Below are positions 11,610 through 42,545 of a DNA stretch of 64,000 nucleotides, piece by piece. Numbering within the stretch: the stretch's first letter is position 1; each line of letters begins with the position of its first letter. The notes under the pieces are model-generated. The model was not told the DNA's origin and searched no databases. It saw nothing but the letters and a program-made list of their open reading frames with translations. The translations under genes were made by a program, and so were the position numbers. The stretch is from Flavobacterium petrolei (GTDB lineage Bacteria; Bacteroidota; Bacteroidia; Flavobacteriales; Flavobacteriaceae), in NCBI RefSeq assembly GCF_003314435.2, contig NZ_QNVY02000002.1, forward strand, positions 310,001 to 374,000, read 5' to 3'.

Positions 11610-11628
11610 ATATAGATTCGATTCAGTA

Positions 11629-16809: not shown

Positions 16810-17088
16810 ATGCTTAAGATTTTTAAAATTACTGCAATAATAGAGGGAATATCTGCTTTACTATTGTTTTTCTTTGCAATGCCAATGAAATATATTTATA
16901 ATGATCCTTTTTATGTTAAACATATTGGTATGGTGCATGGGATATTATTTACTTTATACATAGTTCTTGCAACAATTTTAAAATTTAAAGAAAAGTGGGA
17001 TTTTAAAAAATATTTTATAATTTGTATTGCGTCAATTCCTCCATTTGGTACTTTTTACATAGAAAGAAAATACCTGAAAAATGTATAA
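16810..17088 (+). CDS. DUF3817 small membrane protein
   Basis: A 92-residue protein with three predicted membrane helices. The start (FKITAIIEGISALLLFF), the central VHGILFTLY and the PPFGTFYIERKYL tail are the DUF3817 signature; the family is widespread and of unknown function. It overlaps the mechanosensitive-channel gene by eight bases, so the two are translationally coupled, which hints at a membrane-linked role related to that channel. Confidence 0.85.
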   Translation: MLKIFKITAIIEGISALLLFFFAMPMKYIYNDPFYVKHIGMVHGILFTLYIVLATILKFKEKWDFKKYFIICIASIPPFGTFYIERKYLKNV

Positions 17089-18337
17089 ATACATAGAAAA
17101 AACATTCACTTTTCTATACCCTATATTTAGAAAATGGGGATTTGGAAGCAGTTCAGCTTCCTATATTAGCTTAGTGCTAAACATTATTTTTTTGTGTGTA
17201 ATGGCGTATGTGATATACGTGATTTTCAGGCTTATTTTGGTTACCATTATGGCCGTTATTGCCCAAAAAACCAAAACTAAATTTGATGATTTACTGGTAA
17301 CCAACAAAACGGCGAAATACATCGCACACTTAATTCCGCTGTTGTTTATTTACAAATCAGTTCCAATTATTTTAGATCGATTTGAATATTGGGAAGGTTT
17401 TTTTGGAAAATTGGTTGGAATCTACATCATCATTCTGGTTTTATGGATTATACGTACGATATTCAATGCTTTACGCGATTATTTAAAATTAAAACCGAGA
17501 TTTAGCGACAAACCAATCGACAGTTTTATTCAGGTAATCATGATAATGCTATGGGTAATTGGAATAACCTTAATTATTTCTAAGTTATTTGATATTGATC
17601 AAAAGGAGCTTTTAACCATTTTAGGAGCGGTTTCCGCGGTGATAATCTTGATTTTTAGGGACACTATTTTAGGTTTTGTTTCTAGTGTTCAGGTTTCTAT
17701 TAATGATATGGTTCGAATTGGTGACTGGATTACAATGGATAAATTTGGAGCTGATGGAGATGTGATTGAAATCAATTTGGCTACGGTAAAAGTTCGAAAT
17801 TTTGACAATACTACAACTACAATTCCCACCTATAGTTTAAGTTCTGATTCGTTTCAAAACTGGCGAGGAATGCTAAATTCTGACGGGCGACGCATCAAAA
17901 GACACATTCTGATCAAAACAAGCAGTATTCGGTTTTTGGAGGAAGCCGAATTGAATGACTTGAAAAAAATTCATCTTATTTCGGATTATATTGACACCCG
18001 AAAATTAGAAATAGACGAATATAATACTGCTAATAAAATTGATAAATCAATTGCTATCAATGGAAGAAATTTGACTAATTTAGGATTATTTCGAAAGTAT
18101 ATTACGGAATACCTGTTTAATTATCCGGAATTAAACAAGGACATGATGATGCTTTGTCGCCAGTTGCAATCTACGTCACATGGGGTTCCGCTTGAGGTTT
18201 ACGCATTTTCACATGACAAACGATTTGAAAATTACGAGTACATTATGTCGGATATATTTGACCACATCATTGCTTCAGTAGGATATTTTGACTTAGAAAT
18301 TTTCGAGACAGCCACAGAAAACGAATTTCCTAGTTGA
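17081..18337 (+). CDS. MscS-family mechanosensitive ion channel (YbdG-like)
   Basis: A 418-residue membrane protein. Several helices occupy the first 190 residues; the pore helix and MscS beta domain begin near ILGAVSAVIILIFRDTILGF and continue with NDMVRIGDWITM, ADGDVIEINL and VRNFDNTTTTIPTY. The wording NDMVRIGDWITM...ADGDVIEI and the length match the YbdG/MscM subgroup rather than MscS itself. It would open on membrane tension and release solutes during hypo-osmotic shock. It is translationally coupled to the DUF3817 gene. Confidence 0.9.
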   Translation: MYKYIEKTFTFLYPIFRKWGFGSSSASYISLVLNIIFLCVMAYVIYVIFRLILVTIMAVIAQKTKTKFDDLLVTNKTAKYIAHLIPLLFIYKSVPIILDRFEYWEGFFGKLVGIYIIILVLWIIRTIFNALRDYLKLKPRFSDKPIDSFIQVIMIMLWVIGITLIISKLFDIDQKELLTILGAVSAVIILIFRDTILGFVSSVQVSINDMVRIGDWITMDKFGADGDVIEINLATVKVRNFDNTTTTIPTYSLSSDSFQNWRGMLNSDGRRIKRHILIKTSSIRFLEEAELNDLKKIHLISDYIDTRKLEIDEYNTANKIDKSIAINGRNLTNLGLFRKYITEYLFNYPELNKDMMMLCRQLQSTSHGVPLEVYAFSHDKRFENYEYIMSDIFDHIIASVGYFDLEIFETATENEFPS

Positions 18338-18845: not shown

Positions 18846-19238
18846 ATGAACACACGCGATACTTTTTTAAAAGAATTTCGAGGACAGACAATCGGTTCCG
18901 TAACCACACAATCTACTACGGAAGAATCATTTCAAAATGAAGTGCTTCGTCCCATTTTAAAGCTACAAAATGATTTGTTTATAGCGTCATTTACTAATTA
19001 TATAAGCAAAAATAAAGTTGATTTTTACAGTAATTCTGCTGATAAAAAGTCAACTATTATAGAAAAAGCAATCCAAAAAGACATCAAGTTCAGAAACGCT
19101 TTGAAGGGAATGATTATCGGTTTATTCACCGCCGATGAATATGCTGTTTATGTAAAAAACTCTTCAAATATCAACAAAAGAATGATGAGTATGCTGGTAG
19201 AACGATTAAAAAGCCAAGTGCAGCTGTTTGAGATTTAA
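18846..19238 (+). CDS. Conserved small protein of unknown function (often labelled 'glyoxalase')
   Basis: A 130-residue cytoplasmic protein, predicted mostly helical, starting MNTRDTFLKEFRGQTIG. I remember close homologues in many Flavobacterium genomes carrying the label glyoxalase, but I see no vicinal-oxygen-chelate metal ligands or beta-alpha-beta repeats, so that label looks like propagated misannotation. The core IQKDIKFRNALKGMIIGLFTADEY is the conserved part. It is a single gene with no informative neighbours. Confidence 0.7.
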   Translation: MNTRDTFLKEFRGQTIGSVTTQSTTEESFQNEVLRPILKLQNDLFIASFTNYISKNKVDFYSNSADKKSTIIEKAIQKDIKFRNALKGMIIGLFTADEYAVYVKNSSNINKRMMSMLVERLKSQVQLFEI

Positions 19239-19539: not shown

Positions 19540-20253
19540 ATGAAGGAAGAATATTTCAAATGGCATTCCCCAAATTTAAATAGAGATATTGAAATGTTGG
19601 TTTTTGGACATGCGGGATATCCTGTAATCTTATTTCCAACTTCTATGGGAAGTTACCATGAAAATAAAGATATGGGATTGATAGAATCCGCAAAATGGTA
19701 CCTTGAGCAAGGTTTAATCCAAATATTTTGTCCGGATAGTATTGACAAAGACAGTTTTTACAATAAAAATATCCATCCCGTTCACCGTATAGAAAATCAT
19801 GTCAGATATGACAAGATGATTTGCCATGAACTAGTTGAGAGGGTAAAAAACAATACTCCCTCAGGCAAAGTAGCTATGGCAGGTTGCAGTTTTGGTGGTT
19901 ATCATGCCGCAAATTTTGCATTTAGACATCCCGGTTATGTGAGTCACTTATTTTCTATGAGCGGCGCTTTCAATATCAAGAGTTTTTTGGATGGTTTTCA
20001 TAATGACGACGTTTTTTATAACAGTCCGGAAGATTATCTCTATGGTCTTAATGATCCAGAATTATGGAATATGGATATTGTCCTTGGAACTTCAAACTGG
20101 GATATTTGTTTTGATGCCAATCTAAAATTAAGTAAAGTTTTAAGCGATAGAAATATGCATCACTGGCTAGATATTCGTCAGGAACACAAACACGACTGGC
20201 CGGTTTGGAAAGAAATGTTTCCGCACTACTTATCAAGAATCAGATTTTTTTAG
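19540..20253 (+). CDS. Esterase-family alpha/beta hydrolase (first gene of amidoligase cluster)
   Basis: A 237-residue cytoplasmic alpha/beta hydrolase of the putative-esterase (esterase D/Fes-like) family. The nucleophile elbow is GCSFGG with Ser117; Asp188 (SNWDICFD) and His218 (EHKHDW) are plausible triad partners. No signal peptide. It leads a five-gene co-directional run with two ligase types and an amidotransferase, 51 bp before the ATP-grasp gene. It could release, trim or activate an ester-linked intermediate or product; that role is inferred from context. Confidence 0.82.
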   Translation: MKEEYFKWHSPNLNRDIEMLVFGHAGYPVILFPTSMGSYHENKDMGLIESAKWYLEQGLIQIFCPDSIDKDSFYNKNIHPVHRIENHVRYDKMICHELVERVKNNTPSGKVAMAGCSFGGYHAANFAFRHPGYVSHLFSMSGAFNIKSFLDGFHNDDVFYNSPEDYLYGLNDPELWNMDIVLGTSNWDICFDANLKLSKVLSDRNMHHWLDIRQEHKHDWPVWKEMFPHYLSRIRFF

Positions 20254-20304
20254 ATTCCAGTACCAAAAGAAAAAAAATAAAATTAAGTAATTTATAAACG
20301 TATC

Positions 20305-21249
20305 ATGATGAAAAAAATTGGAATTTTATTTGGAATGGAAGACACTTTTCCACAAGCATTTATTGATCGTGTCAATTCAAAAAACGAAAAGGGAATCATT
20401 GCGGAAGCAGTAGCTATAGATAAGGTAGTTCAGAATAAGGATGGAGAATATGCTGTAATTATTGACCGCATTTCACAAGATGTTCCTTTTTATCGCGCCT
20501 ATTTAAAAAACGCAGCTTTGACAGGAACAAATGTAATTAACAACCCTTTCTGGTGGAGTGCTGATGATAAATTTTTCAATAATGCATTAGCTGACACACT
20601 TGGAGTTCCACTTCCCAACACAGTGATTCTTCCTTCTGCAGAACATCCTACGGATACGACCGGAAAATCATTCCGAAACTTAAAGTACCCAATGGATTGG
20701 GAAGGAATATTTGAATATATTGGCTTTCCGGCCTACATGAAACCTTATTCTGGCGGTGGTTGGAAAAACGTTTACCGCTTGGAAAACATTGAAGAGTTTT
20801 GGGAAAAACATCAGGAAACGGGACAGTTAGTGATGATGTTGCAAGAGGAAATCGTTTTTACGGAATACTTCAGAGTATATTGTTTGGGTTGTAAGGCCGT
20901 TAGGATTATGCAATATGAACCAAGAAATCCGCATCATTTGCGTTATGTAATTGATGGTCCTCCGGTAGATAAAAAATTGTTGGCCACCATAAAAGATTAT
21001 ACTTTAAGACTGTGTAAAGGTTTGGGATACGATTTTAATACAGTAGAATTTGCCGTTAGAGATGGAATCCCTTATGCGATAGACTTTGGAAATCCAGCTC
21101 CTGATGCCGAGTTGACTTCTGTAGGTGCTGAAAATTTTGAATGGGTTGTGGAAGAAGCTGCGAAAATGGCAATCGCTGCTGCAAAAAAACAAAAATCTGG
21201 AAAAATGAACCTGACATGGGGTACTTTTATCAAAGATGCAGTAAAATAG
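20305..21249 (+). CDS. ATP-grasp carboxylate ligase (RimK-like)
   Basis: A 314-residue ATP-grasp enzyme (starts at either of two adjacent ATGs). The pre-ATP-grasp part is followed by a nucleotide-binding region (PAYMKPYSGGGWKNVYRL) and the catalytic core with LQEEIVFTEYFRVYCLG and the Mg2+ site region NTVEFAVRDGIPYAIDFGNPAPD. Such enzymes form an acyl phosphate from a carboxylate and couple it to an amine or thiol. The neighbouring GCS2 ligase and amidotransferase suggest stepwise amide bond formation. It is not close to any housekeeping ATP-grasp enzyme (PurK, PurD, Ddl, GshB) that I recognise. Substrates unknown. Confidence 0.85.
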   Translation: MMKKIGILFGMEDTFPQAFIDRVNSKNEKGIIAEAVAIDKVVQNKDGEYAVIIDRISQDVPFYRAYLKNAALTGTNVINNPFWWSADDKFFNNALADTLGVPLPNTVILPSAEHPTDTTGKSFRNLKYPMDWEGIFEYIGFPAYMKPYSGGGWKNVYRLENIEEFWEKHQETGQLVMMLQEEIVFTEYFRVYCLGCKAVRIMQYEPRNPHHLRYVIDGPPVDKKLLATIKDYTLRLCKGLGYDFNTVEFAVRDGIPYAIDFGNPAPDAELTSVGAENFEWVVEEAAKMAIAAAKKQKSGKMNLTWGTFIKDAVK

Positions 21250-21300
21250 TTTTCAGTCACGGTATTCAGTAAACAGACTGAAAACTGCGACTGCGACTGA
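21248..21300. repeat. Intergenic hairpin/repeat (CAGTC-rich flavobacterial type)
   Basis: AGTTTTCAGT (21248-21257) and ACTGAAAACT (21277-21286) are a perfect 10-bp inverted repeat with a 19-base loop, followed by GCGACTGCGACTGAACAC. The left arm overlaps the ATP-grasp stop codon. CAGTC/GACTG-rich blocks like this are common dispersed intergenic repeats in flavobacteria. It could modulate expression between the ATP-grasp and GCS2 genes. Confidence 0.6.
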
Positions 21301-21317
21301 ACACTAAAAAAATAATT

Positions 21318-22427
21318 ATGTTAAAGAAATTACCTGTTTTTACACTTGGTGTAGAAGAAGAATATCAAATTATAGATCCTGAAACTAGAGATTTACGGTC
21401 GCATTTATCCAAAATTGTGGATGGTGCAAAGATAATTTTGAATGAGCAGGTTAAGGCTGAAATGCATCAATCTGTGGTTGAAGTGGGCACTAATATTTGC
21501 AATAATGTAAATGATGCCAAAAATGAGATTCGGTTTTTACGTTCGAAAATCGTTGAATTAGCAGACAAACAAGATCTTATTGTGGGCGGAGCGGGAACGC
21601 ATCCATTCTCAAAATGGCAAGATCAGCCCATTACAGATGATCCCCGATACCACGATATTGTAAATGAATTGCAGGATGCAGCGCGTTCAAATTTGATTTT
21701 TGGAATGCATTGTCATGTAGGTATTGAAAATCGTGATATTGGCTTACAATTGATGAATCAGGCTACTTATTTCTTGCCGCATATCTTTGCGCTTTCGACT
21801 AATTCCCCATTTTGGGAAGGAAGACAAACAGGCTATAAATCCTTTAGAACAAAGGTTTTTGATAAATTTCCAAGGACGGGTCTACCGGAATATTTTGATT
21901 CAGTTAGTTCGTATGATAATTATCTGGAAACTTTGGTAAAGACGAATTGTATTGATAACCCTAAGAAGATTTGGTGGGATTTAAGATTACATCCTTTTTA
22001 CAATACGATTGAATTCAGGATTTGTGATATGTCATTGACTGTAGATGAAACCATTTGTATTGTCGCAATTATTCAAGCAATTGTAGCCAAACTATATAAA
22101 TTGAATATGAATAACACCAGTTTTAATGTGTACAGACTGGCTTTGATAAAAGAAAATAAATTTCGTGCAGCACGTTACGGGATTGAAAATAACATGATTG
22201 ATTTTGGTTTACAAAAAGAAGTTGAAACTAAAATGCTTATTCTGGAATTGCTTGATTTCATTGATGATGTTGTGGACGAATTGGGAAGTCGTTCCGATAT
22301 TAATTACGTTCATGAAATTCTGAAAAACGGAACCGGAGCTGATAAGCAACTCGCAATTTTTCAAGAAACGGGAGATTTGTCCAGAGTGGTTGACTTTATA
22401 ACTAGTGAATTTACTAAAGGATTATAA
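21318..22427 (+). CDS. Carboxylate-amine ligase, GCS2 family (YbdK-like)
   Basis: A 369-residue member of the GCS2/glutamate-cysteine-ligase-2 family with the glutamine-synthetase-like catalytic fold. Family motifs: GVEEEYQI (11-18), MHCHVGIE and WWDLRLHPFYNTIEFRICD. YbdK-type enzymes make an amide bond between the carboxylate of an amino acid such as glutamate and an amine using ATP, but the physiological substrates of most are unknown. It stands third in the cluster between an ATP-grasp ligase and a glutamine amidotransferase. No glutathione synthetase is next to it, so simple glutathione synthesis is unlikely. Confidence 0.9.
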   Translation: MLKKLPVFTLGVEEEYQIIDPETRDLRSHLSKIVDGAKIILNEQVKAEMHQSVVEVGTNICNNVNDAKNEIRFLRSKIVELADKQDLIVGGAGTHPFSKWQDQPITDDPRYHDIVNELQDAARSNLIFGMHCHVGIENRDIGLQLMNQATYFLPHIFALSTNSPFWEGRQTGYKSFRTKVFDKFPRTGLPEYFDSVSSYDNYLETLVKTNCIDNPKKIWWDLRLHPFYNTIEFRICDMSLTVDETICIVAIIQAIVAKLYKLNMNNTSFNVYRLALIKENKFRAARYGIENNMIDFGLQKEVETKMLILELLDFIDDVVDELGSRSDINYVHEILKNGTGADKQLAIFQETGDLSRVVDFITSEFTKGL

Positions 22428-22448
22428 AAATAAAACGCTTTGTATGTT

Positions 22449-22481
22449 TTGCCGGACGTCATAAAATATAAGTTACCTTTG
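22449..22481 (+). promoter_or_regulatory. Predicted internal promoter before the amidotransferase gene
   Basis: TTG (22449-22451), a 22-base spacer and TACCTTTG (22474-22481) followed by CA fit the Bacteroidota promoter pattern. The start codon is 24 bases downstream. The spacer is slightly long. If active it would allow the last two genes of the cluster to be expressed separately. Confidence 0.5.
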
Positions 22482-22504
22482 CACATTGTTTTTAAAAATA
22501 GATT

Positions 22505-23335
22505 ATGTCCAATAAAATCATAAAAATCGCCCTTTTAGATATGTACAATGGAGAACCTAATCAGGGAATGCGTTGTATTATTGAAATTATCAACAGATTT
22601 AGTCCGGTGGTGAATTTTAAAATATTTGATGTTCGACTAAAAAGCGAGTTACCTGATATAAAATCCTTTGATATTTATATTTCAACCGGTGGTCCCGGAA
22701 ACCCATTAATTGGAGATGGAAATTGGGATGTAAAATACTATGAATTTATTGATTCGCTGAACAAATGGAATGCTGAAAACCCAGTTAAAAAACATGTTTT
22801 ATTTATTTGTCATTCTTTTCAAATGGCCTGCCTGCATTTTGGACTGGCAACGGTGACCAAAAGAAATGATACTTCTTTTGGAGTGATGACCATGCATAAA
22901 ACGAATGAAGGGAAAACAGATCCTTTATTTGAGGGTTTAGCAGATCCTTTTTACGCGATTGATTCCAGAGACTACCAAGTTGTACAACCTAAGTTAAGTG
23001 TTTTTGCGAAAAAAGGCGCCAAGATTATTTCATTAGAAAAAATCAGAGATCATGTTCAATACGAACGTGCGATCATGGCAGTTCGTTTTACCGATTATTT
23101 TGTAGGTACACAATTTCATCCTGAAGCAGATCCGATAAGCTTTGTAACCCATCTAAGAAATAAAGAAGCGAAGGAAAAAATTAAGGAAATGAAAGGGAAA
23201 AAGAAATTCAGAAATATGCTGGAAGATTTATTAGATGATGACAAGATTTACAGAACAAATGAAACTTTGATTCCTAATTTTCTGCGAATAGCAATTAATG
23301 ACTTGATGAAAACTAAAAAAACATTTTCCAATTAA
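22505..23335 (+). CDS. Class I glutamine amidotransferase
   Basis: A 276-residue class I glutamine amidotransferase domain: FDIYISTGGPGNP for the oxyanion region, nucleophile Cys102 in FICHSFQM, and His205/Glu207 in QFHPEADP complete the triad. About 60 lysine-rich residues follow the domain. It lacks any fused synthetase, so its ammonia partner should be another cluster protein, or it may act as a gamma-glutamyl hydrolase. It precedes the divergent ATP-grasp-like gene by 15 bp, indicating tight co-expression. Confidence 0.88.
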   Translation: MSNKIIKIALLDMYNGEPNQGMRCIIEIINRFSPVVNFKIFDVRLKSELPDIKSFDIYISTGGPGNPLIGDGNWDVKYYEFIDSLNKWNAENPVKKHVLFICHSFQMACLHFGLATVTKRNDTSFGVMTMHKTNEGKTDPLFEGLADPFYAIDSRDYQVVQPKLSVFAKKGAKIISLEKIRDHVQYERAIMAVRFTDYFVGTQFHPEADPISFVTHLRNKEAKEKIKEMKGKKKFRNMLEDLLDDDKIYRTNETLIPNFLRIAINDLMKTKKTFSN

Positions 23336-23350
23336 CTTAATATATTCCAA

Positions 23351-24541
23351 ATGATTACAAAATATCGGGAGTTATTTAATGCTCAGTTTACAGAAAGTAA
23401 ATATCAGGAATTCAAAAATGATGTTGCTTCCGATTTTAATTATTTGCCTACTTTCCGCTTAGCTGAAACCCCTTTTTTTATTTCGAAAGAGTTAAAAGAA
23501 CAACTAATTGAAGGTTGTAATGATGTTATAGCTTTTATTCAGATAGAAGACTTTAAGTTAATCACAAACAAATCATTAGAACTTAACCCTAACGTTCCAA
23601 ATGAGGACAATCACACTACTTTTTTAGCGATTGATTTTGGAATTTGTGAAGAAGATGGTCAAATTATTCCTAAACTAATCGAAATACAAGGATTTCCTTC
23701 TTTGTACAATTATCAGTTTAATTTATATGAAAAGTTCCAGAACCATTTCCCTTTTCTTAGTGAATTGACTCCTTTTATAAATAATATTCAGCCACAAGAA
23801 TATTTGGATATTTTGGAAGAAGCAATTTGCAATCATCATCCAAAAGAAAATGTTATTCTGCTTGAAATAGAACCTGAAAAACAAAATACCAAGATTGATT
23901 TTTATTATTGTAAAAGAGATATCGGAATTCCAATTGTATGCGTTACTGACTTAATCAAAAAAGGAAAACAATTATTCTATAAAAATGCGACCGGAGATGA
24001 AATTCTCGTAAAAAGAATCTATAATCGGGTTATTTTTGATGAATTGGATTTGCGAACAGATTTAAAATTAAATTTCCATTTTTCTGATGAACTTGATGTG
24101 GAATGGGCAGGACATCCTAATTGGTTTTTCAGAATCAGTAAATTTATTTTACCTTTTTTAAAAGGGAAATACTTTATTGAAACTACTCTTTTAAGCGAAC
24201 TCAAGGAAATCCCCAAAGATTTAGAAAACTATGTTCTAAAACCACTATTTTCATTTTCAGGGACAGGCGTTATTTTTCATGTTACAAAAGGAGATATCGA
24301 ATCTGTAGTTGAAAAAGAGCATTATATTCTTCAAAAAAAGGTGAACTACCTTCCTATTGTACAATCTCCTGAAGGAAAAGTCAAAGCAGAAGTTCGTGTA
24401 CTTTGCATCTGGAAAAAAGAGGATGCTGCTCCTACTCTAGTCTGCAACTTAGTACGATTAAGCCGAGGTGAAATGATAGGTGTAAAATTCAACCAAGATA
24501 AAGATTGGGTTGGCGGAACACTTGGATTATTTGAAAGGTAA
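23351..24541 (+). CDS. Divergent ATP-grasp-like protein (putative ligase)
   Basis: A 396-residue cytoplasmic protein of no named family I can place. The C-terminal third looks ATP-grasp-like: NYVLKPLFSFSGTGVIF carries a Lys and a flexible glycine loop, YILQKKVNYLP follows like the hinge strand, then KAEVRVLCIW and NLVRLSRGEMIGVKFN resemble the metal-binding strands. The N-terminal part (LIEIQGFPSLYNYQ) recalls glutathionylspermidine-synthase-type proteins, where E-x-Q/N motifs line the active site. Its position after a stand-alone amidotransferase suggests a second ligation or amidation step. Function unproven. Confidence 0.6.
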   Translation: MITKYRELFNAQFTESKYQEFKNDVASDFNYLPTFRLAETPFFISKELKEQLIEGCNDVIAFIQIEDFKLITNKSLELNPNVPNEDNHTTFLAIDFGICEEDGQIIPKLIEIQGFPSLYNYQFNLYEKFQNHFPFLSELTPFINNIQPQEYLDILEEAICNHHPKENVILLEIEPEKQNTKIDFYYCKRDIGIPIVCVTDLIKKGKQLFYKNATGDEILVKRIYNRVIFDELDLRTDLKLNFHFSDELDVEWAGHPNWFFRISKFILPFLKGKYFIETTLLSELKEIPKDLENYVLKPLFSFSGTGVIFHVTKGDIESVVEKEHYILQKKVNYLPIVQSPEGKVKAEVRVLCIWKKEDAAPTLVCNLVRLSRGEMIGVKFNQDKDWVGGTLGLFER

Positions 24542-25300: not shown

Positions 25301-25864
25301 ATGAATAGAAGAGAAGCACTTAAAAGCGTTGCGTTTTTGATGGGAAGCGCAATCTCAGCAACTACAATGGGCGTTTTATTTGAAAGTTTTACTTTGCCCG
25401 AACAAGAAAAAAATCACGTGTCTTTTTCTGCTACGGATGAGGAAATTTTGGCTGAATTCGCCGACATCATTATACCAACCACAGCCTCTTCGCCAGGAGC
25501 TAAGGCTGCAGGACTGGGTGCTTTTATTCCAATGATGATTAAAGATTGTTATCCTGCAAAACTGCAAGAAATTTTTGCTTCTGGATTAAAGGCAATGCAA
25601 TACCAATGTTCTAAAGATTTTGGTAAAGATTTCTTGTCAATGTCAGTTGAAGAGCGTCAAAAACTAATGACTTCATTGCGTGATGAGGCAATTGCGAGCA
25701 ATAGAGCTCCTTCATTCTTTTTATTAGCTAGAGATTTAACTCTTCTTGGGTATTACTCTTCTGAAATAGGTTGCACACAAGCGCGCGAATATTTACCTGT
25801 TCCTGGACGTTATGATGGAAGCGCAACTTATACACCAGGACAAAAAGCTTGGGCTACCAATTAA
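25301..25864 (+). CDS. Gluconate 2-dehydrogenase subunit 3 family protein
   Basis: A 187-residue protein with a twin-arginine-type leader (MNRREALKSVAFLMG, hydrophobic core to about residue 27), so it is probably exported folded with its partner. The rest matches the small subunit family that pairs with GMC-type membrane-bound sugar dehydrogenases: ILAEFADIIIPTT and SPGAKAAGLGAFIPMMI. It starts the operon and lies 47 bp before the GMC large-subunit gene, which has no leader of its own and would be co-exported with it. Confidence 0.87.
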   Translation: MNRREALKSVAFLMGSAISATTMGVLFESFTLPEQEKNHVSFSATDEEILAEFADIIIPTTASSPGAKAAGLGAFIPMMIKDCYPAKLQEIFASGLKAMQYQCSKDFGKDFLSMSVEERQKLMTSLRDEAIASNRAPSFFLLARDLTLLGYYSSEIGCTQAREYLPVPGRYDGSATYTPGQKAWATN

Positions 25865-25911
25865 TTGTTTGCTATTATCTTAAACTATTTAAATAAATAA
25901 AAAAACTAAAC

Positions 25912-27615
25912 GTGAATATAAATACCAATTTAAAAGCGGAAAATACATACGATGCTATTGTAGTAGGATCAGGAATTAGTGGTGGTTGGGCTGCAAAAGA
26001 ACTTACCGAAAAAGGTTTAAAAGTTTTGATGTTAGAACGCGGAATGAATATTGAACACATTACAGATTATGAATCTGCAATGAAAGCTCCTTGGGAATTT
26101 GAACATGCAGGTAAACTTACAGAAGAACAAAAACGAACACATCCAGTTCAAACAAGAGATTATCCATACAATGAAGCTACCGAAAAATGGTGGGTTAATG
26201 ATTTAGAATGTCCATACACAGAAGACAAACGTTTTGACTGGTACAGAGGATTTCATGTGGGTGGAAAATCCTTAATGTGGGGTCGCCAAAGTTACCGTTT
26301 TAGTGACCATAATTTTGAGGATAATGCTAAAGATGGTCATGGTAATGACTGGCCTATTCGTTATAAAGACCTTACTAAATGGTACGATTATGTGGAGAAA
26401 TTTGTAGGAATCAGTGGACAAGCGGAAAACTGGCCATTATTACCCGATGGTAAATTTTTGCCACCAATGGATTTAAATTGCGTTGAAAAATCAGTTAAGG
26501 AAAGACTTGAAAAACATTATAACAAAACACGTATTCTGACTATTGGCCGTACAGCAAACTTAACTGTACCTCATAAAGGACGTGGTAGTTGTCAATATAG
26601 AAATTTATGCAGCCGTGGTTGTCCGTTTGGAGCATATTTTAGCACACAATCATCAACATTGCCTGCTGCTATGGCAACGAATAGGCTTACCGTAAGACCC
26701 TACTCTATAGTGAATCATATCATTTATGATAAAGACACCAAAAAGGCAAAAGGGGTAATGGTTATTGATGCAGAAACAAATGAAACCATGGAGTTTTATG
26801 CCAAAATTGTTTTTGTGAACGCATCCACATTAGGATCAACTTTCCTATTATTAAATTCAACTTCAGAAGCACATCCAAATGGAATGGGTAACGCCAGTGG
26901 ACAATTAGGACATAATTTAATGGATCATCATTTCCGTTGTGGCGCTGAAGGAAGTGCTGAAGGTTTTGAGGATAAATATACGTACGGTAGAAGAGCCAAT
27001 GGAATTTATATTCCAAGGTACCAAAATGTTGGAAATGATAAAAGAGACTATTTAAGAGGTTTTGGATATCAAGGTGGCGCCAGCAGAGGGTTATGGCATA
27101 AGGAAGTTGCCGAATTAGCTTTTGGTGAAAACTTTAAAGATACCATGTCATTGCCTGCTGATTCTTGGAGTATGGGCTTGGGTGGTTTTGGGGAAATGTT
27201 ACCTTATTATGAAAATAAAGTGTACATCGATCATACCAAAAAGGACAAATGGGGACAACCGGTTTTGGCCATTGACTGTGAAACCAAGGGTAACGAAGCA
27301 AAAATGCGGGAAGATATGATGAATGATGCTGCCGAAATGCTGGAAGCTTCAGGAATTAAAAATGTAAAAACGTATGATAACGATTACTATCCCGGAATGG
27401 CTATTCACGAAATGGGTACCGCGAGAATGGGTAATGATCCTAAAGATTCTGTTTTAAATAAATGGAATCAAATGCATGAAGTAAGTAATGTTTTTGTTAC
27501 TGATGGTTCTTGTATGCCTTCTATCGCTTGTCAAAATCCATCGTTAACGTTCATGGCCTTAACAGCTCGTGCCTGTGATTATGCAGTAAAAGAATTAAAA
27601 AAAGGAAATATTTAG
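25912..27615 (+). CDS. GMC-family sugar dehydrogenase (large subunit)
   Basis: A 567-residue FAD enzyme starting at GTG. VVGSGISGGWAAKEL (about 18-32) binds FAD; the C-terminal HEMGTARMG and the NVFVTDGSCMPS...NPSLTFMALT block carry the GMC C-terminal signature. SRGCPFGAYF in the middle is typical of the bacterial gluconate/glucoside dehydrogenase branch. With the subunit-3 protein it probably oxidises a sugar hydroxyl (for example C3 of a glycoside) and passes electrons to a cytochrome c such as the one encoded at 29892. Substrate inferred from operon content. Confidence 0.88.
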   Translation: MNINTNLKAENTYDAIVVGSGISGGWAAKELTEKGLKVLMLERGMNIEHITDYESAMKAPWEFEHAGKLTEEQKRTHPVQTRDYPYNEATEKWWVNDLECPYTEDKRFDWYRGFHVGGKSLMWGRQSYRFSDHNFEDNAKDGHGNDWPIRYKDLTKWYDYVEKFVGISGQAENWPLLPDGKFLPPMDLNCVEKSVKERLEKHYNKTRILTIGRTANLTVPHKGRGSCQYRNLCSRGCPFGAYFSTQSSTLPAAMATNRLTVRPYSIVNHIIYDKDTKKAKGVMVIDAETNETMEFYAKIVFVNASTLGSTFLLLNSTSEAHPNGMGNASGQLGHNLMDHHFRCGAEGSAEGFEDKYTYGRRANGIYIPRYQNVGNDKRDYLRGFGYQGGASRGLWHKEVAELAFGENFKDTMSLPADSWSMGLGGFGEMLPYYENKVYIDHTKKDKWGQPVLAIDCETKGNEAKMREDMMNDAAEMLEASGIKNVKTYDNDYYPGMAIHEMGTARMGNDPKDSVLNKWNQMHEVSNVFVTDGSCMPSIACQNPSLTFMALTARACDYAVKELKKGNI

Positions 27616-27625
27616 GTTCATCATT

Positions 27626-28786
27626 ATGAGAAAATTAAGAATGGGAATGGTTGGTGGTGGTCAAGATGCCTTTATAGGTGCAATCCACCGCTTAGCCGCC
27701 AATATGGATGGACTTATAGAATTAAGTTGTGGTGCATTAAGCATAAAACCAGAAACTGCTCTTGCATCTGGAAAGGCCTTATTTCTTCCGGAATCAAGAA
27801 TATATTTGACTTATGAAGAAATGATTAAAGCAGAAGCGGCATTGCCAGCTGATGAAAAAATCGATTTTGTCACAATTGTTACTCCAAATTTTGCACATTT
27901 TGCACCTGCAATGATGGCTTTAGAACATGGTTTTAATGTAGTTATAGAAAAACCAATGACTTTTTCATTGGAGGAAGCAAAACTATTGAAACAAAAAGTG
28001 GAAGAAACAGGACTAATTCTGTGTCTAACGCATACCTACTCCGGTTATCCAATGGTTAAACAGGCGAAAGCAATGGTTCGAGAAGGGAAACTAGGTAAGA
28101 TTAGAAAAGTTTTAGTTGAATATCCTCAAGGTTGGCTGAGCACACTTTCAGAAAGAGAAGGAAACGCGCAAGCAGCTTGGAGAACGGATCCTAAAAAATC
28201 TGGGAAAAGTTCTGTAATGGGCGATATTGGAACTCATGCCTCACATTTAGCTGAATATATTACTGGTGCTAAAATTACCGATGTTTGTGCGGAATTAAAC
28301 ACCTTAGTTGAAGGTCGCTTGATGGATGATGATGGCGCTGTGTTATTAAAATTTGACAATGGTGCTAAAGGAGTTTTAATCGCATCACAAGTTGCAGCTG
28401 GGGAAGAAAATGCTTTGAAAATTAGAGTTTATGGTGAAAAAGGTGGAATCGAGTGGTTTCAACATGATCCAAATACTTTAATGGTGAGATGGTTAAATGA
28501 ACCAGCTCAAATTTTAAGAGCTGGATCTAATTATAGCTATTTATCATCTTTTGCAACTCATAATTGTCGCACGCCCGGCGGACATCCAGAAGGTTATTTA
28601 GAAGCATTTGCTAATATTTATCGCAACTTTGCTTTAACACTAGGCTGTAAATTAGATGGGACAGAACCTACTCCTGAAATGTTAGACTTCCCTTCTGTAG
28701 AAGATGGAGTAAGAGGAATGGCATTTATAGATAATGTAGTTGCATCATCACAATCGGATAAAAAATGGACTCCTTACGTTTTATAA
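27626..28786 (+). CDS. Gfo/Idh/MocA-family oxidoreductase (cytoplasmic)
   Basis: A 386-residue NAD(P)-dependent dehydrogenase. The Rossmann start MGMVGGGQDAFIGAIHR, the VIEKPMT signature with the conserved Lys and DIGTHASHLAEYI define the family. No signal peptide. Placed 10 bp after the GMC gene in the sugar oxidation operon, it likely oxidises or reduces a keto-sugar or its product, with NAD(H) recycling in the cytoplasm. Substrate not evident. Confidence 0.88.
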   Translation: MRKLRMGMVGGGQDAFIGAIHRLAANMDGLIELSCGALSIKPETALASGKALFLPESRIYLTYEEMIKAEAALPADEKIDFVTIVTPNFAHFAPAMMALEHGFNVVIEKPMTFSLEEAKLLKQKVEETGLILCLTHTYSGYPMVKQAKAMVREGKLGKIRKVLVEYPQGWLSTLSEREGNAQAAWRTDPKKSGKSSVMGDIGTHASHLAEYITGAKITDVCAELNTLVEGRLMDDDGAVLLKFDNGAKGVLIASQVAAGEENALKIRVYGEKGGIEWFQHDPNTLMVRWLNEPAQILRAGSNYSYLSSFATHNCRTPGGHPEGYLEAFANIYRNFALTLGCKLDGTEPTPEMLDFPSVEDGVRGMAFIDNVVASSQSDKKWTPYVL

Positions 28787-28825
28787 TAAATTAGGAATTC
28801 ATAAAAGTTTTAGACAAAATATAAT

Positions 28826-29878
28826 ATGACAACAATACAAGGTCCTGCAGTATTTTTAGCGCAGTTTATTAGTGATGAAGCTCCTTTTAATTCCTTAGAC
28901 GGAATTTGTAAGTGGGCAGCTGATTTGGGTTTTAAAGGTATTCAAATGCCAACATTAGATACTCGATTCATTGATTTGCAAAAAGCAGCAGAAAGTAAAA
29001 CCTACGCAGAGGAACTTAAAGGTACAATTGCTTCTTACGGACTAGAAATCACGGAATTATCAACGCATTTACAAGGTCAGTTAGTAGCTGTTCATCCTGC
29101 TTACGATGATTTTTTTGACGCTTTTGCTCCCGTGAATGTTCATGGAAATCCTAAAGCTAGACAAGAATGGGCTGTTCAACAGTTAAAATATGCCGCAAAA
29201 GCATCCCAAAATTTAGGATTAAATGCACACGCAACTTTTAGTGGTTCATTACTTTGGCAATATTTTCACCCTTGGCCACAAAGACCTCCGGGTTTAGTGG
29301 AAGACGGTTTTGCTGAATTGGCTAAAAGATGGTTGCCCATTTTAAATGAATTCGATCAAAATGGTGTTGACCTTTGTTATGAAATTCATCCCGGAGAAGA
29401 TTTATTTGATGGCGAAACCTATGAAATGTTTTTGAAGGCAGTAAACAATCATTCTAGAGCCTGTTTGCTTTATGATCCTTCACATTTTGTATTACAGCAG
29501 TTGGATTATATTCAATACATTGATTTTTATCATGAAAGAATCAAAGCCTTTCATGTAAAAGATGCCGAGTTTAACCCTACCGGAAAGCAAGGAACTTTTG
29601 GCGGATATCAAAGTTGGGTAAACCGTGCGGGGCGTTATCGTTCTCCTGGAGATGGCCAAATTGATTTTAAAACTATTTTCAGCAAATTGGCACAATATGA
29701 TTTCAAAGGTTGGGCAGTTATGGAATGGGAATGTTGCATTAAAAACCAAGAAGATGGTGCGCGAGAAGGTGCCGAATTTATAAAAAAGCATATTATAAAA
29801 GTAACCGACAAAGCATTTGACGATTTTGCTGCTGTGGAAACAAATAAGGCTTTTAATAGAAAAAACTTAGGATTATAA
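28826..29878 (+). CDS. Sugar phosphate isomerase/epimerase-type TIM barrel
   Basis: A 350-residue AP-endonuclease-2-type TIM barrel without signal peptide. Candidate metal ligands are in CYEIHPGED, LLYDPSHFV, AFHVKDAEF and VMEWECC, the usual E-D-H-E sequence. It is longer than the 270-290-residue members, with extra C-terminal residues. In related Bacteroidota sugar-oxidation loci such barrels act as epimerases or dehydratases on keto-sugars; here it lies between the dehydrogenase and cytochrome genes. Exact reaction unknown. Confidence 0.82.
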   Translation: MTTIQGPAVFLAQFISDEAPFNSLDGICKWAADLGFKGIQMPTLDTRFIDLQKAAESKTYAEELKGTIASYGLEITELSTHLQGQLVAVHPAYDDFFDAFAPVNVHGNPKARQEWAVQQLKYAAKASQNLGLNAHATFSGSLLWQYFHPWPQRPPGLVEDGFAELAKRWLPILNEFDQNGVDLCYEIHPGEDLFDGETYEMFLKAVNNHSRACLLYDPSHFVLQQLDYIQYIDFYHERIKAFHVKDAEFNPTGKQGTFGGYQSWVNRAGRYRSPGDGQIDFKTIFSKLAQYDFKGWAVMEWECCIKNQEDGAREGAEFIKKHIIKVTDKAFDDFAAVETNKAFNRKNLGL

Positions 29879-29891
29879 AAATTAAATTGAA

Positions 29892-30272
29892 ATGAAAATG
29901 AAATTAAAATATTTGCTTTTTGGGGTTGCTTTAATTGGCTTAACCTCATTTTCTAATGATACTTTAGATACAAAATATACTACTGCGAGCAAAAGAACAA
30001 ATACTGTTTTTCAAGTATCAGATGGTGAAAAACTAATTGCTAAATCGGATTGTATTGGATGTCATAAATTAGACAAAAAACTAATAGGTCCCTCCTATTT
30101 AGATATTGCAAAAAAATATCCAGCTACTGATAAAAATGTTGCTTATTTATCAGGTAAAATTATAAAAGGAGGCTCCGGTGTTTGGGGAACAATTCCTATG
30201 TCAGCGCATGCATCTTTGAAAAAGAATGATGCAACTTCTATGGCAAAGTATATTTTATCGCTGAAAAAATAA
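29892..30272 (+). CDS. Small periplasmic c-type cytochrome
   Basis: A 126-residue secreted cytochrome c. The N-terminus has a Sec signal (hydrophobic about 7-20, no lipobox seen); haem attachment is CIGCH at Cys54-Cys57-His58, and the axial Met is probably in TIPMSAH. The fold fits class I cytochromes c551/c552. In the operon it would take electrons from the exported GMC dehydrogenase toward the terminal oxidase. Confidence 0.9.
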   Translation: MKMKLKYLLFGVALIGLTSFSNDTLDTKYTTASKRTNTVFQVSDGEKLIAKSDCIGCHKLDKKLIGPSYLDIAKKYPATDKNVAYLSGKIIKGGSGVWGTIPMSAHASLKKNDATSMAKYILSLKK

Positions 30273-30372
30273 TAGTACAGGTATTTGCAAATTCAAACTC
30301 ACTGTAGATTATTTAAAACAGACCAATTCTCAAATAATTTTCATTTCTATTAACTAACCGTAATAAAAATAA

Positions 30373-31830: not shown

Positions 31831-31862
31831 GCAAGATTAATTATTAATTCAAAAATTTAAAA

Positions 31863-32600: not shown

Positions 32601-32647
32601 TTAATATCTGAAAATTAAAAAAATAACCAAAACCAAAATAAAAAATA

Positions 32648-38663: not shown

Positions 38664-39878
38664 TTAATGAAGGTTTGTCACTTTACTTTGTTCAACTACA
38701 GCGGTAAAATCATTTGCTAAACGATTCCCATAATCCTCTAGCAATTCTAAAACTCTTTCTTGTTTATCTGATTTGACAATAAGACCCGCATGATATTCTA
38801 GTGGAACTTTAAAACAAACTTCCGGATCTGAAAACGATGCTAAATTAGGATGTTGGAATTTTGACAATGTCAAAACGATACCTGCATATCCTTTTTTTAC
38901 TTTTGGTAACATGTATTTAGATTCTTTGACCAATCCATTTTCAATTGCTGCCCATTCTTTCCATAAATTGATATTGGAAGCTTCAGCAACCATTTCGGCC
39001 AAATGCGCTCCTCCTACTCTTGAGGATGTTTCCAAAAAGTAAATCTGACCATCATCATTACTTTTTATAAACTCCGTATGCGCAGCACCATGTTTCAAGC
39101 CAAAGCCTTTCATCACTTGCTCATTTAGTTTTTTTATCGCTTTGTCATCATCAGAATTGTATTTGACATTAGCAGAGCGGAAAACACCGCCTCCTTGTGA
39201 AATTTCCATTGGTGTTGCCAAATATTTTGATGTTAAACTAAAGATTACTTTACTTTCCGAAATCAAACTATCGCAATGATATACATCGCCTGGTTTAAAT
39301 TGTTCGATTAAATATTTGAATCTGTTATTCCCCATTTCATTGATATGAATCCACAAACTCTCTTTATCAAACACTTTTATAATCCCGGATGCCGATGCTT
39401 CAGAGCGTGGTTTCAGAACCCATGGAGCCGGAATTGTATCCGCAAAAGTGTTGATGTCATGATCATTAAATAACGAACAAAAAGCCGGAATAGGAATTCC
39501 ACAACTTTTAGCTCTCATTCGCATGGCCAGTTTATCTCTAAAATAACGTCCCGTAGTTTGTCCCATTCCATCAATACGAAGATTTTCCCTGAGATACGTA
39601 GCTTTTTCAACATCATAATCGTCCAAAGCTACAATGGCATCAATTTTTGTTGACTTCATAAAATTACCAACACCTAACAACAGATGTTCTAAATTCCAAT
39701 CGACATCCTGCCCTTCCATATAAAAAATCTCATCAATATATTGATGTGGCCATGGTTTATCCCTCAGTTTTTCGCTCGTCACTAAATAGACTTTGTTGCC
39801 TGACTTTTTTAAATTAATTAAAAAATCGGACCCTTTGAAATAATTTGAAATACAAAGAAACGTTTTAGAATTTTCCAT
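38664..39878 (-). CDS. ATP-grasp ligase (second cluster)
   Basis: A 404-residue enzyme with the three ATP-grasp parts: a pre-ATP-grasp N-terminal half, the nucleotide site WVLKPRSEASASGIIKV with the Lys, and the metal/catalytic site AAHTEFIKSNDDGQIYFLETSSRVGGAHLAEM near the C-terminus. It resembles the carbamoyl-phosphate-synthase-L/BacD type that joins amino acids or similar acids to amines. Its start is three bases after the M17 aminopeptidase stop, so the two are tightly coupled. Substrate unknown. Confidence 0.86.
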   Translation of the reverse strand: MENSKTFLCISNYFKGSDFLINLKKSGNKVYLVTSEKLRDKPWPHQYIDEIFYMEGQDVDWNLEHLLLGVGNFMKSTKIDAIVALDDYDVEKATYLRENLRIDGMGQTTGRYFRDKLAMRMRAKSCGIPIPAFCSLFNDHDINTFADTIPAPWVLKPRSEASASGIIKVFDKESLWIHINEMGNNRFKYLIEQFKPGDVYHCDSLISESKVIFSLTSKYLATPMEISQGGGVFRSANVKYNSDDDKAIKKLNEQVMKGFGLKHGAAHTEFIKSNDDGQIYFLETSSRVGGAHLAEMVAEASNINLWKEWAAIENGLVKESKYMLPKVKKGYAGIVLTLSKFQHPNLASFSDPEVCFKVPLEYHAGLIVKSDKQERVLELLEDYGNRLANDFTAVVEQSKVTNLH

Positions 39879-39881
39879 AGA

Positions 39882-41315
39882 TTATAAATTTTCAATGAAT
39901 TTAGTTAATAAATGGACACCAAATGCTGTTGCATGCTTACTTTTAGCAAATTCATCATCGCCAAATGCTACTCCAGCCACATCCAAATGTGCCCAAGCTT
40001 TATGTTCTTGCGTAAAATATTCTAAAAATTTAGCCGCACTTATGGCTCCAGCAACCGCTTTTCCACTAAAATTCTTAACATCGGCAATATCACTTTCTAT
40101 ATCGGATTTATATACATCCCAAAGCGGTAATGGCCATAAACGCTCTCCAATTGCATCTCCGTTTTCTTGTAGTTTCTTAGCCATTTCTTCGTTATTGGTA
40201 AACAAAGCACCGCATTCAAAACCAAGAGTAGCCACGCTGCTTCCCGTCAATGTAGCAATATCAACAATGTATTCCGGTTCGAAATTTTTAATCAAATAGG
40301 ACAATCCATCAGCTAAAACTAGTCGGCCTTCAGCATCTGTATCGATTATTTCTATAGAATGTCCGCTGTAACTGTGAATTACATCACTTGGCAAAAATGA
40401 TTTTGCGTCCACAGCATTTTCGGCACAAGGTACAATTGCGGTTACTTTTACAGGTAATTGCAAATCAGCAATTAGTTGCATCGCACCAAAAACAGCGCCG
40501 CCACCAGCCATATCACACTTCATGTGAAGCATTCCTGCCGTTTTGATATTCAATCCTCCAGTATCAAAAGTGATTCCTTTTCCTACCAATCCAACATGTT
40601 TTAGATGTGGGACTTCTTGTTTAGGAGTGTAATTCATGATAATGAACTGAGGCTCATTTTCACTTCCTTTTCCAACCGCTAAAAAAGCACCCAATCCAAC
40701 TATTTTTGAAGCATCGTAGCCCAGAACTTCAACTTCAAAACCATATTGATCTCCTGTTTCTTTAGCCCATTTTGCTAAATATTTTGGATTAACAGTATTA
40801 GGCGGCAAATCGACTAAGCTGTAGGTTGCTAATTGTGCTTTGGCAATTTTAATTCCTTTTTTGGCTGCAGCCAAATGATCTTTTTCTGAAATCAAACTCA
40901 AATTAAAATCGGGTTCTATAAATGGATGTGTTTTTTTGTCTAATTTAAAATGACCTAAATCATAAGTACCCAAAAGCAAACCTGAAACCATAGCTTCAAT
41001 CTGGTTTTCTACGAATTCCTGCGGTATAACTAAAGCTACATTCGAACTGAAATTATCTTTTTGTTTCGATGAAATGCGGCGAAAAGTAGTTTTCAAAGAT
41101 TTATAATCTATAGTTTTTCCTAATCCAATGAAGAGATATGTATTATCATTTTCTTCAGCTAAATAGTGAGAATCTTTTTTTCCATAAAAAACTTTAGAAG
41201 AAATTTCCAAACCATTGAATGTAATGGGAACAATACTTTTTGAGTAGGTTTCAAAAACTGGAATCAAAATTGTGCCTGAAAAATTATCTGAATTTGTAAT
41301 TGTCGTTGTTGTCAT
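39882..41315 (-). CDS. M17 leucyl-aminopeptidase-family protein
   Basis: A 477-residue cytosolic M17 peptidase. Catalytic-domain motifs are GKGITFDTGGLNIK (metal-binding Lys and Asp) and DTDAEGRLVLADGL (metal Asp and Glu, catalytic Arg), with GIT and MAGGGAVF around them. The N-terminal domain is poorly conserved as usual. It would remove N-terminal residues from dipeptides or peptides and is usually hexameric. Between an esterase and an ATP-grasp ligase it might process or salvage the same peptide-like compound. Confidence 0.9.
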   Translation of the reverse strand: MTTTTITNSDNFSGTILIPVFETYSKSIVPITFNGLEISSKVFYGKKDSHYLAEENDNTYLFIGLGKTIDYKSLKTTFRRISSKQKDNFSSNVALVIPQEFVENQIEAMVSGLLLGTYDLGHFKLDKKTHPFIEPDFNLSLISEKDHLAAAKKGIKIAKAQLATYSLVDLPPNTVNPKYLAKWAKETGDQYGFEVEVLGYDASKIVGLGAFLAVGKGSENEPQFIIMNYTPKQEVPHLKHVGLVGKGITFDTGGLNIKTAGMLHMKCDMAGGGAVFGAMQLIADLQLPVKVTAIVPCAENAVDAKSFLPSDVIHSYSGHSIEIIDTDAEGRLVLADGLSYLIKNFEPEYIVDIATLTGSSVATLGFECGALFTNNEEMAKKLQENGDAIGERLWPLPLWDVYKSDIESDIADVKNFSGKAVAGAISAAKFLEYFTQEHKAWAHLDVAGVAFGDDEFAKSKHATAFGVHLLTKFIENL

Positions 41316-41399
41316 TTTCTTGTTTTTTTATAGCTAACTGATTAAATGCAATAGCATTGCCTGATACTTTTTTTGTTTTATATTCAATAAATCACTTCT

Positions 41400-42545
41400 C
41401 TACGGATTTTTTGTATTAAAAAATAACCATTCAATGGCTTTAGGAAATTCATCACTCCAATAGGTTTCACTATGTTTTCCTTGCCTGTTTATACTTAAAT
41501 TAATGTTCGAGTTTTCTTTCACAAATTCACTTGAAATCAAATCATTCTGAAACTTATTTACATGCTCAATCATGGTTTTACTTTCATCACCGCCAGCATA
41601 TAAATACACTTTGGTATCAGCAGTATTCGCTTTCTTTGGGTCAATTTTTAATTCGGGAACAACCCACAATGACGGGGAAAAAATCATTAATTTTCCATAC
41701 ACTTCAGGATTTCTCAACCCACTAAAAATGCTCACTAATCCACCCATCGAGCTTCCTCCAATTCCTGTGAATTCTCGTTCTTTTTTGGTTCTAAAATGAC
41801 TGTCTACATAGGGTTTTAATGTGTCCGTTACAAAGCGAATGTATTTCTTGCCTTGCCCTTTTCCCAAAACTGTTTTCCCAACATTGTATTCTTTTATGCG
41901 ATCTTCTTCGGCGTGTTCTATTGCAATTATTATAATTTTTCCAATTTTATACTCGGACATAACTGCCAATTTCTTATCAATTTCCCAATTGCCAAATTCA
42001 GCAGTTTCATTGAATAAATTTTGGGCATCCTGTAAATACATCACCGGATAACTTTCACTTGAATTGTCATAATCATGTGGTAAAAGTGCCCAAATTTTTC
42101 TGGTTTTGTTGAGTTGCGGAATCTCAAATTCATCAGATATCAACTGTACTTGTGGCAAAAAAGATTGTTTAAAGGGAAGCCAGTTTCTTCTCCATCTCGC
42201 AACGTGTTCGTTTTGAATTCCGGTATGCGCTATTGTGGAGCGATTTTCGGTTCGATTTCCATGGCTGTCAATCTCTACTTCACTCCAATCCCCTTTTGAA
42301 AATTTATATAAAAGCTCAGCTGGGTAATCAAAATCGTGCGAAAATTTATAATGATACGAACTGTTTCCTATTTTCTCCATCAGAAAATCTTTGTCCTGTG
42401 TGCGCCAATTATTAAAATTTCCAGAAATATAAACCGGTCGCGCATCATCTTCATCAGTAGTCATTATTATATGCAGTCCGGTATTTATTGTGGAATTGTT
42501 TAAATCAGGGTTAAATGTGGTATTATCTGAATTCATTACTTGCAT
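41400..42545 (-). CDS. Esterase with N-terminal glycogen-binding-like domain (Fes/esterase D type)
   Basis: A 381-residue protein. The first about 130 residues (ARPVYISGNFNNWRTQD...) form an early-set/CBM48-like domain. The rest is an alpha/beta hydrolase of the enterochelin-esterase type: GIGGSSMGGLVSIFSG with the nucleophile Ser, Asp in YLYAGGDES and His in RQGKHSETYW. No signal peptide is obvious. It leads the operon esterase - M17 - ATP-grasp. The architecture resembles Bacteroidota hydrolases of siderophore or peptide esters; the substrate is open. Confidence 0.84.
   Translation of the reverse strand: MQVMNSDNTTFNPDLNNSTINTGLHIIMTTDEDDARPVYISGNFNNWRTQDKDFLMEKIGNSSYHYKFSHDFDYPAELLYKFSKGDWSEVEIDSHGNRTENRSTIAHTGIQNEHVARWRRNWLPFKQSFLPQVQLISDEFEIPQLNKTRKIWALLPHDYDNSSESYPVMYLQDAQNLFNETAEFGNWEIDKKLAVMSEYKIGKIIIIAIEHAEEDRIKEYNVGKTVLGKGQGKKYIRFVTDTLKPYVDSHFRTKKEREFTGIGGSSMGGLVSIFSGLRNPEVYGKLMIFSPSLWVVPELKIDPKKANTADTKVYLYAGGDESKTMIEHVNKFQNDLISSEFVKENSNINLSINRQGKHSETYWSDEFPKAIEWLFFNTKNP

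Follow-up and report, generated by a model that had tools for sequence, protein, structure and literature searches.

YgiC and YjfC have been presented as peptide-spermidine ligases of E. coli (as cited in an excerpt of PMC12568646), in agreement with the RefSeq product name of YgiC. The fungal E-64 pathway, in the account given by the same excerpt, forms its amide bonds stepwise without a nonribosomal peptide synthetase (NRPS), its second ligase being an ANL-family amide synthetase (PMC12568646). A set proposed to be comparable and likewise NRPS-independent is encoded in a stretch of 64,000 nucleotides from Flavobacterium petrolei (contig NZ_QNVY02000002.1, positions 310,001 to 374,000, hereafter the window) by five adjacent genes, designated A to E (Table 1). 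Together with a further ligase gene, G3, these genes are read here, at a probability of about 0.58, as a dedicated pathway that makes a small intracellular peptide from amino acids and possibly an amine. Neighbourhoods joining amidoligases to peptidases, reportedly set out by Iyer and colleagues in 2009, would be systems of the same kind. To our knowledge the YbdK/PRK13515 carboxylate-amine ligases, the family in which C falls, have no established physiological product.

A sequence-only reading of the window had taken A to E for a five-gene amidoligase cluster, and the five open reading frames (ORFs) were found intact where it had placed them, all on the plus strand and with intergenic gaps of 51, 68, 77 and 15 bases. 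Enrichment was not seen for promoter-like sites (34, shuffled mean 30.4), terminator-like sites (2, shuffled mean 3.3) or a Bacteroidota-type promoter pattern (3, shuffled mean 8.0). B had at least 574 matches in the genome collection, and conservation was followed in the best 80 of them, such that this sample leans to close relatives. In 73 of these loci A to E keep the same order on one strand, and counted singly A is present in 78, B in 80, C in 76, D in 76 and E in 74. A contig end cuts four of the remaining seven loci (L018, L075, L085 and L089), the true exceptions to the order being L059, L065 and L066. The genes flanking the set vary from group to group, and among these best 80 matches the operon of the window is nearest to those of Flavobacterium psychrolimnae and F. 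sandaracinum.

The phylogenetic profile across 392 genomes of the phylum Bacteroidota, to which the counts below refer unless stated otherwise, gives the same picture. By the cut-offs set for this analysis, strong matches to B were found in 131 genomes with 36 family codes (145 matches less 7 weak ones with E-values of 3e-4 to 1e-3 and 7 distant ones of 34-44% identity), to C in 121 at an E-value of 1e-100 or below (13 of 134 matches being weaker and left out), to D in 88 and to E in 118. B, C and E occur together in 109 genomes, the pairs B and C, B and E, and C and E being found in 117, 114 and 113 (hypergeometric p <= 3e-74, a value that ignores phylogeny), and among the 40 genomes nearest to the window C and E are found in the same 10. 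Written with a dash for a missing member, the profiles are BCDE in 66 genomes, BC-E in 43, B-D- in 9, BCD- in 7, B-DE in 4 and -C-E in 3, with -CDE, B--E, BC-- and --D- in one genome each. A to E are a conserved set beyond chance, widespread in Bacteroidota. The homologues co-occur both in the 392 genomes and in the 80 loci, and the dedicated amidoligase unit of the sequence-only reading has held up; its account of the extent of that unit, the identity of E, amidation and transport has had to be corrected (see below).

In 62 of the 109 genomes B, C and E all lie within 10 kb of one another. Only B and C are linked in 16 of the other 47, only C and E in 4 and none in 27. In 9 of the 47, B, C and E share a contig, with at least one pair of them separated by over 10 kb. 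The E regions of other unlinked genomes carried no A, B, C or D gene in the flanks fetched for any of the 15 opened. Beside unlinked C and E no clear further partner was seen other than a Na+/solute symporter (SSF), discussed with E below. An amidohydrolase and an S10 peptidase also stand beside unlinked C or E in a single family.

B is the most conserved member of the set. It matched no Pfam family and fell far below the rimK_fam threshold (24 bits against a cut-off of 143.4), although it has the fold common to RimK, LysX and ArgX. Its AlphaFold model (predicted local distance difference test score, pLDDT, of 82) found RimK as the best structural match in a VIA search (Z 20.7, root-mean-square deviation (rmsd) 2.8, 259 residues aligned), with ArgX and LysX next and the group as a whole at Z 19-21 and rmsd 2.8-3.3. 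C scored over the cut-offs of Pfam GCS2, of NF010039 for PRK13515 (519 against 371 bits) and of TIGR02050 (286 against 176 bits), its only matches among solved structures at an E-value of 0.001 or below being the YbdK-type 1tt4 and 1r8g. Of 14 control genomes outside Bacteroidota, five had a match to the C family and none passed the cut-off. The catalytic residues that had been named for A, C and D proved to be present and, in alignments of their families (83 to 119 rows), conserved. In C, Glu13-15, His131 and His133 are kept in all 90 rows, and each of the 15 GCS2 residues checked is kept in 89 or 90 of 90.

E had been described as a divergent ATP-grasp-like protein. That description is to be replaced, as the model shows a complete ATP-grasp ligase of the circularly permuted kind, with the glutathione synthetase/YgiC fold. 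The structure model (pLDDT 88) matched YgiC (Z 24.8, rmsd 3.8, 344 aligned), human glutathione synthetase (GSS, 8fbz; Z 24.1, rmsd 3.4, 353 aligned), soybean homoglutathione/glutathione synthetase (Z 24.1), the glutathionylspermidine synthetase Gss (2ioa; Z 23.8, rmsd 3.7, 337 aligned) and the fungal Cp1B of the E-64 pathway (Z 21.9, at 14% identity), with the next row after this group at Z 12.2. At the level of sequence E stays under the Pfam cut-offs, CP_ATPgrasp and GSP_synth (13.5 of 29.3 bits) being sub-threshold, and local-mode hhalign aligned it with YgiC over nearly its full length but weakly (E-value 0.00018, probability 48.8) and with Gss barely above noise (probability 0.6). In that weak YgiC alignment D95, E111, Q113 and K297 of E fall on conserved positions. 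While E has the whole fold of YgiC and Gss, it differs from them in its identity of only 12-14%, in having Q113 for the Asn of the E-x-N motif and in that its gene stands in one operon with those of a GCS2 and a RimK-like ligase.

In one distant family the symporter is fused or adjacent to E in 4 of 7 genomes, being fused in frame in G163 and adjoining in G171, where E lies just downstream, while in G345 and G306 E is joined in frame to the C-terminal part of the symporter, the symporter match there being in two pieces; no symporter was seen beside E in G117, G175 and G275 of this family. The set had been said to have no exporter, which is true of the two operons of the window, neither of which holds a transporter, but does not extend to this distant family. 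As separate observations on the surroundings of E, a class III aminotransferase gene follows it directly in seven Spirosomataceae loci, and in a single Bacteroidota bin B, D and E are preceded by a gene of the enolase superfamily that resembles muconate cycloisomerase or dipeptide epimerase and is over no cut-off.

Where E is missing, another permuted ATP-grasp protein (Pfam CP_ATPgrasp_2) can sit between B and D. Such variants were first seen in 40 diverse, hand-chosen neighbourhoods and were then counted in panels of 80 genomes for each slot, made up of all B-positive genomes without E (or without D) and a spread of the rest. The alternative protein was present in 16 of the 17 genomes without E, the exception being G401, as against 1 of 63 genomes with E, there at 37% identity. 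What varies is the enzyme, the E step itself being retained.

The slot of D shows a related pattern. D passes the Pfam GATase cut-off (38.8 against 22.8 bits) and keeps Cys102, His205 and Glu207 in 87 of 87 rows, with a nucleophile elbow of I-C-H-S-F-Q. An M29 peptidase of at least 60% identity, matches of about 30% being set aside, was found in 11 of 45 B-positive genomes without D as against 0 of 35 with D (Fisher p 0.002, ignoring phylogeny), lying between C and E in 10 of the 11 and elsewhere in one. This use of a peptidase in the slot of D in some lineages argues that D is a hydrolase and not an ammonia donor, and as such D is probably an amide hydrolase. A, for its part, passes the Pfam Esterase cut-off, with Ser117 kept in 88 of 88 rows and His218 in 87 of 88, the remaining row having a gap; on inspection no signal sequence was evident.

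The unit is also larger than the five genes first described. A second operon about 14 kb from A to E carries G3, an M17 leucyl-aminopeptidase-like gene three bases from it and a second esterase gene, all on one strand. G3 is by sequence a homologue of the L-amino acid ligases (RizA, BL00235 and BacD type) and is predicted to have ligase activity, matching the solved structures 4wd3 and 3vot with E-values of 1.4e-18 and 1.7e-7. Unlike those ligases G3 tracks B and the cluster. It was found in 26 of 41 B-positive genomes as against 0 of 39 B-negative genomes of a chosen, non-random panel (20 of the same genus and 19 others, 7 with a weak B match and 12 with a weak C match), and among near relatives in 10 of 10 genomes with C as against 1 of 30 without, the exception being G003, in which G3 is in two pieces. 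A G3-type ATP-grasp gene lies downstream of E in 16 of the 80 loci, and an M17-like gene, recognised by inspection, stands beside G3 in 12 of the 80. The second operon appears to belong to the A to E system, and the M17 peptidase and second esterase, judging by their position, may be counted with it.

By their folds and families B, C, E and G3 are expected to form amide bonds at the expense of ATP, and on this footing an outline of the pathway can be proposed in which all members would serve a single product. G3 and B would link amino acids by amide bonds, by way of acyl-phosphates, and C would place a gamma-glutamyl or similar carboxylate onto an amine, gamma-glutamyl chemistry being plausible. 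The final bond would be made by E and, by analogy, would be to a small amino acid or to a polyamine. Trimming or recycling of the product or its intermediates might fall to D (or the M29 peptidase in its stead), the M17 peptidase and the esterases; the product itself would possibly be gamma-glutamylated and amine-capped. With no transporter in the two operons and no evident signal sequence in A, the product is likely to be intracellular.

Several observations weigh against a single pathway of this form. Distant homologues of B occur in seven genomes without C, D or E and with other neighbours. C is without a match at an E-value of 1e-30 or below in 13 of the 131 strong-B genomes, with a match of 38% identity in one more, and the genomes without C include all four of one family that have B, D and E; C is therefore either not strictly required or replaced. 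G3 has no match in 15 of the 41 B-positive genomes, and 34 of the 45 genomes without D have no M29 peptidase either, so that the swap accounts for only part of the absence of D. For many of the 47 genomes in which B, C and E are not all linked the assembly is a draft and the genes fall on separate contigs, which limits what can be said of their distances. In addition two arginines with a functional role in Gss, R316 and R538, correspond in a low-confidence alignment to A93 (A in 57, Q in 18 and T in 8 of 83 rows) and F302 (83 of 83) in E, and as such the substrate of E is probably unlike that of Gss.

Other accounts of the same genes have been weighed against the peptide pathway. The sequence-only reading had raised the possibility of an amidated compound. 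On such an account D would free ammonia from glutamine for B, C or E to amidate a carboxylate, much as in carbamoyl-phosphate synthetase and GatD/MurT pairs. The GATase fold of D, the conservation of Gln106 and Gln203 beside Cys102, His205 and Glu207, and the position of D between two ligases are in keeping with this. It is made doubtful by the absence of D from 45 of the 131 strong-B genomes and by the M29 peptidase in its slot elsewhere, yet in only 11 of those 45, as well as by the residue two after the nucleophile, usually Gly in such enzymes, which is Ser104 in all 87 rows. A glutathione-like low-molecular-weight thiol, with C making gamma-Glu-Cys and E or B completing it, would draw on the GCS2 superfamily membership of C and the eukaryotic glutathione synthetase fold of E, as well as on two PRK13517-group models named glutamate--cysteine ligase that score C well, albeit below cut-off (NF010043, 334.7 of 409 bits; NF010041, 274.6 of 332 bits). 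C remains under every Glu-Cys ligase cut-off listed, being far below those of the cyanobacterial and plant models (TIGR02048, 60.1 of 249 bits; TIGR01436, 28.4 of 463 bits) and of EgtA (12 of 371 bits), and E reached only 11.1 of 299 bits with the glutathione synthase model TIGR01380. The five proteins had no match at an E-value of 1 or below to EgtC or cyanophycin synthetase models, and none of A to E scored over threshold with any model for glutathione, ergothioneine or cyanophycin. There are besides more ligases than glutathione needs, and the two Gss arginines are not kept. The genome also encodes BshC, over its cut-off, which makes a role as the main thiol less likely, and in an excerpt of a Chlorobiaceae study (PMC6282198) derivatives of bacillithiol are put forward as the thiols most widespread among bacteria. 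On balance the thiol account is unlikely.

Tagging, in which amino acids would be put onto a protein or carrier by B and E and taken off by D, M29 or M17, is quite improbable, for although the closest folds to B include the LysW-dependent LysX and ArgX beside RimK, no small carrier is conserved near the operon. The commonest ORF of 35-79 residues within 2 kb, a cysteine-containing type of 53 residues, was found in 5 of 73 loci, and the 130-residue gene upstream of A in only 24 of 80 loci and in none of the 32 more distant ones. In favour of tagging, ligase-peptidase pairs have reportedly been proposed as tagging systems by Iyer et al. in 2009. Use of amines or polyamines through gamma-glutamyl intermediates, as in the Puu route, with C gamma-glutamylating and D hydrolysing, would suit the YbdK type of C, a D that could be PuuD-like and the SSF symporter found with E. 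It is nevertheless very improbable, since such a route leaves B and E without an evident task and, on inspection, oxidases and aldehyde dehydrogenases do not recur beside the set from group to group; a GMC oxidoreductase 3′ of E in 9 of 80 loci, all on the Flavobacterium side, belongs with sugar genes. Two further candidates were rejected. A secondary-metabolite or siderophore cluster was set aside as inspection, confined to the clusters as listed, showed neither an NRPS nor a TonB gene among the neighbours that recur, and anti-phage defence as none of the five proteins matched a PADLOC family at an E-value of 0.001 or below.

The reading can be taken a step further: the pathway may be of old standing in Bacteroidota and yield a peptide metabolite of the cell interior that is still to be discovered, be it a cofactor, an osmolyte or a redox buffer. 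Up to four different peptide ligases would build this metabolite, the pathway would have been retained across at least 36 families of the phylum, and both the E-type ligation and hydrolysis would be served by enzymes that can replace one another. This extension is offered tentatively, as possible rather than probable. The occurrence of B, C and E together in 109 genomes, often at separate places, would fit a metabolite shared by many Bacteroidota, one that current annotation has missed, and the ligases of the set are candidate biocatalysts. Among the open-licence papers searched none named a product for this cluster.

The history of the set may involve more than vertical descent. In a concatenated tree of B, C and E the Flavobacterium operons group with those of Cyclobacteriaceae (46 rows, Shimodaira-Hasegawa-like approximate likelihood ratio test support of 100), apart from those of marine Flavobacteriaceae, which suggests transfer between lineages; the tree is a quick, midpoint-rooted one without bootstrap, and as its rows are joined it is not a gene-by-gene test. 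Spread by plasmid was rejected, B and E being unmatched in 72,556 plasmid records. C matched 72 such records, all at below 60% identity, and the two plasmid neighbourhoods opened (Paracoccus and Spirosoma) were without annotated B, D or E partners.

Table 1. Positions of the genes of the A to E and G3 operons, of neighbouring genes in the window and of related features in other loci (window positions unless a locus is named).
Feature	Position	Strand	Description
A	19540..20253	+	alpha/beta-hydrolase (Esterase family), 237 residues, Ser117 and His218
B	20305..21249	+	RimK/LysX/Ddl-like ATP-grasp ligase (predicted), 314 residues
C	21318..22427	+	GCS2 carboxylate-amine ligase (PRK13515/YbdK type), 369 residues
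D	22505..23335	+	class I GATase-fold Cys-His-Glu enzyme, 276 residues
E	23351..24541	+	circularly permuted ATP-grasp ligase (as modelled), glutathione synthetase/YgiC/Gss fold, 396 residues
G3	38664..39878	-	L-amino-acid-ligase-like ATP-grasp protein, 404 residues
M17 gene	39882..41315	-	leucyl-aminopeptidase-like, 477 residues, 3 bases from G3
Second esterase	41400..42545	-	381 residues, upstream of the M17 gene
Second operon	38664-42545	-	G3, M17 gene and second esterase
Mechanosensitive-channel gene	17081-18337		upstream of the operon
130-residue gene	18846-19238		upstream of A
Sugar-oxidation locus	25301-33886		between A to E and G3
E with symporter	L167:3637-6237	+	
E with symporter	L165:4790-7369	-	
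Class III aminotransferase	L060, L072, L077, L080, L086, L087, L090, about 10400-12400		directly 3′ of E
Enolase-superfamily gene	L066:588-1703	+	precedes B, D and E
Distant B homologues	L131, L137, L150, L152-L155		genomes G046, G125, G198, G325, G383, G392, G407

Upstream of the operon the mechanosensitive-channel gene has relatives in 21 of the 80 loci and in none of the 32 more distant ones. The sugar-oxidation locus comprises genes for gluconate 2-dehydrogenase subunit 3, a GMC oxidoreductase, two Gfo/Idh/MocA proteins, a xylose-isomerase-like TIM barrel, a 3-keto-disaccharide hydrolase and a member of the nucleoside H+ symporter family, and an M1-type peptidase gene and a PhoD-like gene also lie between E and G3.

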